DNA from: Halopiger aswanensis
Lineage (GTDB): Archaea; Halobacteriota; Halobacteria; Halobacteriales; Natrialbaceae
DNA length: 64,000 nt
NCBI RefSeq assembly: GCF_003610195.1
Contig: NZ_RAPO01000002.1
Location: forward strand, 1,302,001-1,366,000
Reading direction: 5' to 3'
Made by a program: the position numbers and the translations under genes. The notes under the pieces are model-generated. The model ran no database searches. It was not told the origin of the DNA and saw nothing but the letters and a program-made list of their open reading frames with translations. Positions 60,798 to 64,000 of this stretch are shown piece by piece; position 1 is the first letter of the stretch; each line of letters begins with the position of its first letter.

Positions 60798-60963
60798 GGC
60801 CAGAACATGTTCGATCTGTCACTTAAGTCGTTAATCCAGTTCTCGAACGGTAGGAATTCTCGATGACGGCGAACGATCGCGGTCGGCCAAGCGGTGGCCG
60901 TCGTACGGACCGGTTGACCCGCACAGGACCCGATGACGTGATCCGAGACGGCGCGTCCCGCAC

Positions 60964-60969
60964 CCTTTT
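60964..60969 (+). promoter_or_regulatory. TATA-like box (CTTTTA)
   Basis: About 27-28 bases upstream of the PINA ATG at 60995, supporting this start over the upstream frame from 60863. Confidence 0.45.
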
Positions 60970-60994
60970 ACCTGCGAAGGGCGAACCGTACGAC

Positions 60995-62872
60995 ATGAAC
61001 GTCGTGCCGGACACGAGCGTGGTCATCGACGGCCGCGTCTCGGCGACGATTGAAGACGGGCAGTTCGAGGGAGCGACGATTTCGGTACCCGAAGCCGTCG
61101 TCGCGGAACTCGAGGCGCAGGCCAACGACGGCATCGAGACCGGCTGGGACGGCTTAGAGGAACTCCAGCGACTCGCCGACCTGGCCGACGAGGGCGTCAT
61201 CGACCTCGAGTACGTCGGTGAGCGGCCAAACGCCATCGAGCGGGGCCACGCCTCCGAGGGCGAGATCGACGCCCTGATCCGCGACCTCGCGGAGGACCTC
61301 GACGCGACCTTCCTCACCAGCGACATCGTTCAGGCCGAAGTCGCCCAAGCCAAGGGACTCGACGTCGAGCACCTCTCCCCCGAGGTACGCGAGGTCGACG
61401 TGGGGACGCTCACCGTCGAGAACTACTTCGACGACCAGACGATGAGCGTCCACCTCAAGACGGGCGCCGTCCCGATGGCCAAGCGGGGCGAACTCGGCGA
61501 GATGCAGTACATGCCGATCGCCGACGAGCCGCTCGACGAGGAGACCATGGACGAGTACGCCCGCGAGGTCATCGACGCCGCCAAGGAGTCCCCCGAGGGC
61601 TTCCTCGAGCTCTCCGAACCGGGCATGAAGATCGTCCAGTTCCGCGACTACCGCATCGCGATCGGCCGGCCCCCCTTCTCGGACGGCATCGAGATCACCG
61701 CCGTCCGGCCCATCGCCCAGACCGACATCGAGGACTACGAGAACGCCGACGAACTCAAAGAACGGCTGCTCGAGCGCCAGCGCGGCGTCCTGATTTCGGG
61801 CGCCCCCGGAGCGGGTAAATCGACCTTCGCGCAGGCGGTGGCTCGCTTCATCTCCGATCACAACTACTCGGTCAAGACGATGGAGAAGCCCCGCGACCTG
61901 CAGGTCGGCCCCGAGATCACCCAGTACACGGAACTGGGCGGCGAGATGGCAAAGACCGCGGACGCCCTGCTGATGGTCCGCCCCGACTACACCATCTACG
62001 ACGAGGTCCGCAAGACCGACGACTTCGAGGTCTTCGCGGACATGCGGCTCGCGGGCGTCGGAATGATCGGCGTCGTCCACGCGACGCGACCGATCGACGC
62101 CCTCCAGCGCCTCGTCGGCCGCGTCGAACTCGGGATGATTCCCCAGGTCGTCGACACGGTCGTCTACATCGAGGCCGGGGAGGTCAACACCGTCTACGAC
62201 GTCAAGACCGAGGTCAAGGTCCCCGCGGGTCTCACCGAGGAGGACCTCGCTCGCCCGGTCATCCAGGTCACGAACTTCGAGACCGGCGAGCCCGAGTACG
62301 AGATTTACACGTTCAACCGCCAGGTCGTCACCGTCCCGCTCAAAGACGAGGAGGGCGGCCCCGGCAGCGAGTCCGGCGTCGACCGAATCGCCAAACAGGA
62401 GATCGAACGAGAGATCCGCTCGGTCGCTCGCGGCTACGTCGACGTCCTACTCAAGAGCCAGGACCGCGCGGTCGTCTACGTCGAGGAAGACGACATCTCG
62501 AGCGTCATCGGGAAAGGCGGCGGTCGAATCACCGACATCGAGAACCGGCTGGGGATCGATATCGACGTCCGCACCCACGACGAGAACCCCAACTACGGCG
62601 CGGGCGCCGGCAGCGCCAACGCGAGCAGCGACGGCGGTGGCGGCCAGGCCGCGGGCCAGATGGTCACCCCCGAGGTCACCTCCCGCCACATCGTTATTCC
62701 CGTCGACGGCAACCACGGCGAGACCGTCGAGGTCCAGGCCGGCGGCGACTACCTCTTTACCGCCACGGTGAGCCGCGGCGGGGAGATCCAGGTCTCTCGA
62801 GGGAGCGCGATCGCGGACGAACTCGAGCAGGCAATCGACCGAAAGGATCCGATTACAGTCGTCCCGTCGTAG
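60995..62872 (+). CDS. pina: PINA: PIN/VirB11-type ATPase/KH domain protein
   Basis: 625 residues from ATG 60995. The PIN domain (1-140) has its first catalytic Asp at PDTSVVIDGR (D6). The ATPase has Walker A GAPGAGKS (269-276) and the VirB11/PilT-like block MRLAGVGMIGVVHATRPIDALQRL. The KH motif VIGKGGGRI starts at about 504. In Sulfolobus PINA is a Holliday-junction branch-migration ATPase, so a DNA recombination role is likely. A Gly/Ala/Ser-rich loop (about 530-553) is a haloarchaeal insert. Confidence 0.95.
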   Translation: MNVVPDTSVVIDGRVSATIEDGQFEGATISVPEAVVAELEAQANDGIETGWDGLEELQRLADLADEGVIDLEYVGERPNAIERGHASEGEIDALIRDLAEDLDATFLTSDIVQAEVAQAKGLDVEHLSPEVREVDVGTLTVENYFDDQTMSVHLKTGAVPMAKRGELGEMQYMPIADEPLDEETMDEYAREVIDAAKESPEGFLELSEPGMKIVQFRDYRIAIGRPPFSDGIEITAVRPIAQTDIEDYENADELKERLLERQRGVLISGAPGAGKSTFAQAVARFISDHNYSVKTMEKPRDLQVGPEITQYTELGGEMAKTADALLMVRPDYTIYDEVRKTDDFEVFADMRLAGVGMIGVVHATRPIDALQRLVGRVELGMIPQVVDTVVYIEAGEVNTVYDVKTEVKVPAGLTEEDLARPVIQVTNFETGEPEYEIYTFNRQVVTVPLKDEEGGPGSESGVDRIAKQEIEREIRSVARGYVDVLLKSQDRAVVYVEEDDISSVIGKGGGRITDIENRLGIDIDVRTHDENPNYGAGAGSANASSDGGGGQAAGQMVTPEVTSRHIVIPVDGNHGETVEVQAGGDYLFTATVSRGGEIQVSRGSAIADELEQAIDRKDPITVVPS

Positions 62873-63163
62873 GCGGTCGGACCGCGAGCGAACGAAGCGA
62901 ACGAGCGACACCTTTTCCCGGAGCTGTTTTGGAGGAGCAACGAGCGGGTGACGCGACGAGAAAAACGGCTGGTGATCTAGTGTCTCGAGGGGTGGGATCG
63001 CCGAGAAACTCGAACAGGCGATCGACCGGAGAAACGATCGAGACGGGGTCACAGTGCGCGAACGCGACGACAGACGACCCGACCGACAGTGTCGGATGGG
63101 AACGGAACCGCGACGGAGCGACGGCTCCCCAACGACCCGACTACGGCCGGGAGCGGCGACGCA
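62873..63163. other. Intergenic stretch after PINA
   Basis: About 290 bases without an intact gene. It holds a decayed copy of the PINA 3' end (62971-63056) and no clear promoter or terminator. The Brp/Blh-like gene comes in from the opposite strand at 63164. Confidence 0.5.
62971..63056 (+). pseudogene. Decayed repeat of the PINA 3' end
   Basis: This stretch aligns with 62782-62862 inside PINA. Both have GG(A/T)GATC(C/T)AG, then TCTCGAGGG, then GATCGC, then ACTCGA(A/G)CAGGC and ATCGACCG. In protein terms the PINA end IADELEQAIDR is matched by IAEKLEQAIDR, and VSRG precedes both; a one-base deletion after GGGGTGG breaks the frame between the two blocks. There is no start codon and no upstream similarity I can see. 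Confidence 0.7.
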
Positions 63164-64000
63164 CTAGGGTGTCCAGACGCCTTGTATCCGATCGAGCAGC
63201 GTGACGACGACCACGTGCGGCAGCGTCAGGACGGCGATCGTCACCAGATAGAGCGCGAGGAGATCGGGAACGGTTGCAGGCGTTCGCGGGACGGCGAGTC
63301 CGATCGCGACGAACACGAGCAGTCCGCCCGCGGTCAGCGGCGCTGCGTCGCGGGCGAAGCGCCGAATCGCGGTGTCGATCGCTCCGCGCTCGAGCGCCGT
63401 CCCGGCGACGGGATCGACGAGCATCGTCCGGAGGATGTGCCGAAGGGAGTGCCAGAAACAGAAATAGAGCCCGATCGCGAGTATCGGCGGCACGGTCGCG
63501 AAGTAGACGATCAGGCCGACCGTCTCCGCGGCGTCGACCAGCCACGGGCCCCGACCGTCCGATTCCGCTCGACCGAAGCCCAGGCCAAGCGAAAGCGCGA
63601 CCAGCGAGCCGAAGCCGATCGCGACGGCCGTCCGCACCGGCCGAGCGAACGCCGGCTCGAGTGCGGCCGCCGCACCGGGATCGAACAAGCCGACGAGCGT
63701 TCCCGCGACGAAGGCGTACTGCTCGGGAAACGCGATCAACGGAACGAGCATCGGGAGGCCGCCGCGGACGACGAGCGCGAGCAGTCGGCTGGCCCGCGTC
63801 TCGAGGTGCGACGCACCGACGAACGCGAGCAGCGCGTAGACGTCGCCCTGGCCCCAGTGGACGAGCGTCACGAGGATGAACAGGACGAACGCAGCGACGG
63901 GGGCGAGGAACCAGCCGGCGGCGTAGGCGCTACCGAGGAGGAGATAGAGGCCGCCGACGAACGCGAGCGAGCGGCGCGTGACGGGGTCGCCTCGAGCCCG
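63164..64000 (-). CDS. brp: Brp/Blh family beta-carotene 15,15'-dioxygenase, 5' end outside the window
   Basis: The frame stays open to the window edge, so the N terminus is missing; 278 residues are visible. Hallmarks are LVHWGQGDVYALL, YFCFWHSLRHILRTM and TLPHVVVVTLLD, with histidines that hold the iron. About eight membrane helices remain. The family cleaves beta-carotene to retinal for rhodopsins. No rhodopsin gene is in the window. An in-frame start at 63871 would remove the first visible helices and is not favoured. Confidence 0.92.
   Translation of the reverse strand, partial: RARGDPVTRRSLAFVGGLYLLLGSAYAAGWFLAPVAAFVLFILVTLVHWGQGDVYALLAFVGASHLETRASRLLALVVRGGLPMLVPLIAFPEQYAFVAGTLVGLFDPGAAAALEPAFARPVRTAVAIGFGSLVALSLGLGFGRAESDGRGPWLVDAAETVGLIVYFATVPPILAIGLYFCFWHSLRHILRTMLVDPVAGTALERGAIDTAIRRFARDAAPLTAGGLLVFVAIGLAVPRTPATVPDLLALYLVTIAVLTLPHVVVVTLLDRIQGVWTP

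Follow-up and report, generated by a model that had tools for sequence, protein, structure and literature searches.

The question raised by this locus is why the end of the pina gene of Halopiger aswanensis should be present a second time just beyond the stop codon of the gene itself. The window, by which we mean the whole stretch of 64,000 nucleotides analysed, has an intact pina gene, then a spacer, then the remains of a hairpin that we call H, and then a broken copy of the pina 3' end (Table 1).

Table 1. Features of the pina locus, in window coordinates
Feature	Position	Strand	Basis
pina, intact, 669 aa (PIN domain, T2SSE-like ATPase, KH domain)	60863..62872	+	ORF; Pfam PIN, T2SSE, KH_1
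Repeated segment X, the current pina 3' end (last ~90 nt with stop)	62783..62872	+	alignment; repeats in relatives
Spacer after the pina stop with terminator-like stretch, degenerate here	62873..62919	+	sequence; comparison with intact spacers in relatives
Hairpin H, decayed	62920..62970	+	covariance model R1
X', decayed copy of the pina 3' end	62971..63039	+	alignment; two 1-nt deletions and one 3-nt insertion
Beta-carotene 15,15'-dioxygenase-like gene, convergent neighbour, extends past the window edge	63164..64000	-	Pfam BCD, 3.7e-60

The repeated pina end in the window and in relatives

The original prediction was of a diverged repeat of the last pina codons about 100 bases past the stop, and this is borne out. 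The local alignment of the gene end with the copy scores 33, well above every one of 5,000 dinucleotide shuffles (maximum 20, mean 9.8), and none of the unrelated stretches of the window, on either strand, scores more than 20 against the pina 3' end. The copy begins 98 nt after the stop codon (62870-62872), at the predicted start; the predicted end at 63056 was generous, as similarity weakens past about 63039. The reading frame of the copy is indeed broken, not by the single one-base deletion proposed but by the deletions and insertion listed in Table 1. The mismatches between gene and copy lean to third codon positions (7/24, against 2/23 and 3/24 elsewhere).

A covariance model (R1), built on 56 hairpins from other loci with that of the window left out, gives H as its sole standout match when the window is scanned (21.4 bits, E 0.0029; E 0.22 for the same site when the whole genome is scanned). 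The decayed H sits exactly at the predicted place, between pina and the copy. We consider the window copy to be, on balance, probably a remnant of a gene-end cassette, and a worn example of one.

A search of 100 relatives with PINA showed that in many genera its last 29 or so codons have a second match shortly after the gene. We took 3' regions of pina from the genomes of the family and a few others, and among the 119 usable loci the pina end recurs downstream in 44 (score at least 26, the window counted). A tandem duplication private to the window genome is ruled out by these loci and by the unrelated genes, discussed below, that have the same arrangement. The copied segment is about 30-100 bases long and located 50-230 bases past the pina stop. 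The majority of copies start near -90, finish at the stop codon and are placed at +50 to +230, and there is a short class with the last 30-40 nt only (L104, L118, L124, L126 and L071). Many copies are near-identical to their own gene even at silent sites (95/95 in L037, 95/96 in L044, and 92/92 twice in L107), and there are arrays of up to four pina units (L134). When the 119 loci are scored for a copy and for H by a relaxed pattern, 30 have both, 70 have neither, 14 have only a copy and 5 only H; the 14 are in part a matter of decay, because the relaxed pattern misses decayed hairpins.

Some pina loci have longer inserts, with ORFs that were read by eye; the standard cassette is too short to code. 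L036 (G039) has a tandem unit of about 1.9 kb at approximately 0-2080 past the pina stop, with a small ORF and a 243-aa ORF that we take to resemble bacteriorhodopsin, and with pina ends flanking. In L099 (G132) and L128 (G120) a lipoprotein-like ORF of 498-505 aa lies directly after pina (0-1834 past the stop) and has a pina-end copy behind it at +1742/1744, so that larger inserts share the site. L119 (G138) has the start of the same lipoprotein-like gene after pina, without a copy, and in L153 (G159) there is an ORF, multidrug-transporter-like by eye, between pina and a 3'-end remnant (113-1417 past the stop).

The hairpin H and the gene ends copied beside it

H is about 55 nt long with a conserved core, and is positioned between gene and copy in a spacer with the shared layout CTTTTT-GGT-NN-AGATTTTT-[stem-GAGyGG...CCCGA-stem]-AAAAAGGT-N'N'. 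The foot NN/N'N' is complementary in 109 of 126 distinct H, with five different pairings common, while 28.6 are expected and 10,000 shuffles gave at most 45. The GAG(N)GG...CC(N)GA arms are kept in 96 of the 126, and the GAGyGG/CCCGA core is near-invariant. The inner stem (T/A run to core), parsed in 98 of the 126, has 323 pairs, against 248 +/- 5 with shuffled partners; a crude test of the apical stem gave 183 pairs against 203.7 +/- 5.8, with the register perhaps at fault. H is under selection as a folded structure, and probably folds on the sense strand of the gene, that strand having the lower energy in 122 of the 126. The left arm of H resembles the T-stretch terminators in the accessible text of a Haloferax volcanii 3'-end study (PMC7237163). 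Rfam gave no match for hairpins from the 13 and 10 loci compared. The role of H may be that of a recombination site, of a terminator between transcripts, or both.

The exact H core pattern is present in 94 of 125 genomes of the family, with 1-19 per genome (2 matches for the reversed control). At the level of the order, 162 of 293 genomes have it (5 matches for the reversed control), representing 57 of 87 genera and, as counted from the table, 13 of 17 families. For counting copies we used the hairpins from loci returned by the searches together with 40 listed regions, which are part of all H found. A copy of the upstream sequence is present within 20 bp after H for 49 of 72 distinct hairpins (42 of 65 without pina), and 6 of 29 hairpins from outside the family are followed by a copy. 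Among control gene ends at least 600 bp from any hairpin 6 of 1,264 are copied, and several of these are pina in the wrong frame.

The genome that includes the window also has H after a radical-SAM gene and a diphthamide synthase gene (both by Pfam), with the last 66 or so nt of the former and about 119 nt of the latter copied behind it; eight R1 matches in this genome have E <0.01, those at these two genes with a clear adjacent copy and one other (L264) with a possible copy. The target genes of H recur across different genera and include about a dozen unrelated genes. Further targets are genes that we take, by sequence motifs, to be HisF, HisH, IleRS, SufS, EtfA, GatB, PurH and ArgF, an SDR and an MBL-fold enzyme. 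Of 39 Dph6 loci, among them three repeats of others, 24 have a copy, and most of these share one junction. PINA acts in recombination, and it had been suggested that this made pina a special site for such a repeat; the suggestion is unsupported, because the same hairpin and copied end follow about a dozen unrelated genes.

Other H have different surroundings. In many of those without a copied end, 1-5 nt separate the right foot from the stop of a conserved gene in convergent orientation, an arrangement resembling a two-way terminator (L252-L257, L234, L244, L236, L270 and others). In L168 (G048), and in L263 of the window's own genome (C2:451919-451982), a hairpin of the H family lies between two genes, presumably dnaK and dnaJ in L168 and, by likeness, also in L263. 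G113 has five H in tandem with a 124-bp period (C24:3695-4246). In L157, L191, L204, L219, L190, L236 and L252 there is a conserved stretch upstream of H (GTTACCGC..., CATACGG...CCGTTTCACC), which suggests an undescribed small RNA or the end of an element.

Origin of the copied ends

In many haloarchaea there is a unit with one version of the final 20-40 codons of a gene, the stop, a terminator and H. It completes the gene, and directly downstream of it there is another 3' end of that gene, alike up to the stop. The explanation we lean towards is that the unit is an inserted cassette, without an enzyme of its own, that has replaced the gene end and displaced the native one.

The first evidence is in the codons. 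Over 44 loci (28 pina and 16 other) gene and copy differ at 174 of 1,291 third codon positions (13.5%), and at 35 of 1,272 first (2.8%) and 26 of 1,292 second positions (2.0%). It follows that both ends were for the most part coding sequence as they diverged; if a copy decayed as noncoding DNA next to a gene under constraint, we estimate that a third-position bias of about 2 to 1 would be expected.

The second is from five pairs of pina loci, one occupied and one empty, in which the flank after the stop of the empty relative matches the sequence after the copy with an offset of 0-1 on both sides (153/160 for L131/L110, 153/159 for L118/L094, 138/160 for L132/L125, 139/160 for L139/L120 and 128/160 for L104/L098). 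At pina, then, the flank after the copy is the flank that comes directly after the gene stop in relatives without the unit, although a two-taxon pair is by itself also compatible with loss of the unit in the empty relative. Mismatches to the empty relative in the last 90 nt of the gene, as against the preceding 105, number 9 vs 3 in L131, 11 vs 1 in L132 and 10 vs 3 in L104; for L118/L094 and L139/L120 they are 7 vs 8 and 5 vs 4, with no foreign end. The body of L131 is nearest to L110 (7/173 mismatches) and its end is nearest to L137 (4/90), the body of which is 21/173 off, while the L131 copy matches L110. L130 likewise has a foreign end, against L104 and L060. Replacement of the end is well supported in these four lineages (L130, L131, L132 and L104), not everywhere: the 27 pina loci that could be tested divide into 5 with a native-like copy, 8 with a native-like gene end and 14 undecided. 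Among the 39 Dph6 loci (again with the three repeats) there were no occupied/empty pairs under the thresholds used. Of the three options in the original prediction, an earlier C terminus pushed aside by an intact one fits best at pina in the relatives; the window copy has decayed too far for a native end to be told from a foreign one.

The cassette would be acquired as DNA from a relative that has it, through recombination near -90 of either the homologous or the site-specific kind, and the native gene end would become a downstream spare, which may then be homogenised with the gene by recombination, be amplified in tandem, or decay as in the window. Ordinary homologous recombination, with occupied relatives as donors, may be all that transfer involves; in the four lineages the left limit is nearly constant at about -90, and this hints at something more specific. 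In L132 and L104, of the short class, the foreign stretch starts near -90 and the native copy near -33, as though part of the native sequence were missing.

A possible alternative, to which we give less credence, is that each of these genes underwent one ancient partial duplication of its 3' end, in tandem, and that gene and copy have since been kept alike by gene conversion and unequal exchange with no movement between species; a minisatellite at the gene end, seeded by the hairpin, is the same reading and just as tentative. Loci of one gene in different genera do share junction and scar, as in Dph6, where GG-TTCT-GAGAC is found in 6 of 7 loci, with HisF, IleRS and PurH similar. In 20 of 26 loci nothing compared matches the copy better than its own gene does, and this favours homogenisation or self-duplication over plain insertion. 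Where the spacers look orthologous the copies follow their own gene (L034/L035, L046/L047 and L121/L134), and in L121/L134 the likeness is 0.87 for the spacers, 0.99 and 0.99 for gene and own copy, and 0.89 between the copies. There are also tandem arrays of 2-5 units. However, this alternative is at odds with the foreign ends and native copies of the four lineages and with the spacers of L131 and L132, which barely resemble the native flank, and the third-position bias of about 5-6 to 1 exceeds the estimate of about 2 to 1 from conversion with neutral decay. Tandem duplication, also raised in the original prediction, does occur, in the form of a secondary step that amplifies complete units (arrays in L107 and L134), and we do not take it to be the primary event. 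We read the history of the cassette as insertion or transfer, then homogenisation and tandem exchange, with decay in the window.

More doubtful is a further step, that haloarchaea have a site-specific recombination system in which H, folded as a single strand and behaving like attC while unrelated to it in sequence, inserts cassettes at the 3' ends of core genes, each with a matching end that lets the host gene survive, and spreads ends between species. The attC hairpins are imperfect, with an extrahelical base and mismatches, and are strand-biased, and integrons have been reported in archaea. H may be comparable, as an imperfect hairpin of lower energy on the sense strand that closes, on the 3' side, a small unit found in tandem arrays, but the units hold gene ends and not the whole genes of integron cassettes. 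We found no enzyme or circular form of the cassette.

It is improbable that the copies are att-site scars left at conserved gene ends by integrative elements with a tyrosine integrase, the cargo having been lost. Integrative elements and genomic islands may enter a conserved gene at its 3' end and leave it restored, and in tyrosine-integrase islands the repeats run from inside the target gene to its stop. The repeats discussed here also span gene interior to stop, with the insert supplying the intact end and the old end becoming a downstream direct repeat; in many loci homology stops at the stop codon or within about 20 nt of it, and in others it reaches into the terminator and H. The longer gene-bearing inserts at the same place (L099, L128, L036 and L153) are in keeping with such an origin. 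But no integrase is seen, the ORFs of the longer inserts having been read by eye, the standard unit is without cargo and of about 150-300 bp in nearly all lineages and genes, one hairpin family is always present at many unrelated genes, and a dozen different targets would require a dozen integrases. Among 50,697 phage records none matches the pina end, and among 72,556 plasmids there is one match, to a full-length paralog on a Natronococcus megaplasmid, and the H linker pattern is absent from IMG/VR; no viral or plasmid attP with a pina end was thus found. The megaplasmid gene (L259, NZ_CP132295.1) is a second, diverged full-length pina of 612 aa.

It is very improbable that the copies arose by retro-copying of mRNA 3' ends, or through a Y1/HUH transposase that acts on the hairpin. 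The sense-strand structure of H would suit either, and Y1 transposases are present in 93 of the 125 genomes. However reverse transcriptase (RVT_1, PF00078) is present in only 2 of the 125 and retro-copying is rejected on this basis, while Y1 as the mover fits poorly, since hairpin number, judged by eye, does not seem to track it: H is plentiful without detected Y1 (10 in G113 and 9 in G127) and undetected where Y1 is abundant (G152 and G153). Hardly credible at all is an antisense-RNA gene, with a putative minus-strand transcript through the copy, ending at H, that would pair with the mRNA of the gene; the many copy-less H beside convergent stops would suit this, but we reject such selection because mismatches have no bias to G-U-tolerated changes (75 vs 73).

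Comparison with known systems and significance

In the literature searched there was no description of such a hairpin gene-end cassette. The nearest case in haloarchaea is in Haloquadratum walsbyi, for which the accessible part of the account describes deletion-coupled insertions and short mobile repeats (SMR, PATE, MITE) with enigmatic mobilisation (PMC3119063). As there described, these resemble our units in being small, transposase-free and precise pieces of foreign DNA, probably from close relatives, but the SMRs differ in having terminal inverted repeats, making no target duplication and hitting mobile elements (PMC3119063). The gene-end cassette carries a gene end and leaves the target gene whole, and the target end is copied next to H in 49 of the 72 hairpins. 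REP elements with RAYT transposases are, in the sections available of a recent account, multi-copy extragenic imperfect palindromes in intergenic regions (PMC12306157). H is like them, to that extent, in being a multi-copy imperfect palindrome in intergenic regions, but it has no visible link to Y1, and long copies of the neighbouring gene's end lie next to it.

If our preferred explanation is correct, there is an unrecognised order-wide family of tiny elements in the haloarchaea, by which the ends of core genes such as pina, diphthamide synthase and others would be traded between species with the genes remaining unbroken. This would account for partial gene copies that annotation ignores, would add a new conserved structured motif, and would raise the question of which machine recognises the hairpin. 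It would also mean that the last codons of haloarchaeal core genes may differ in history from the body of the gene.
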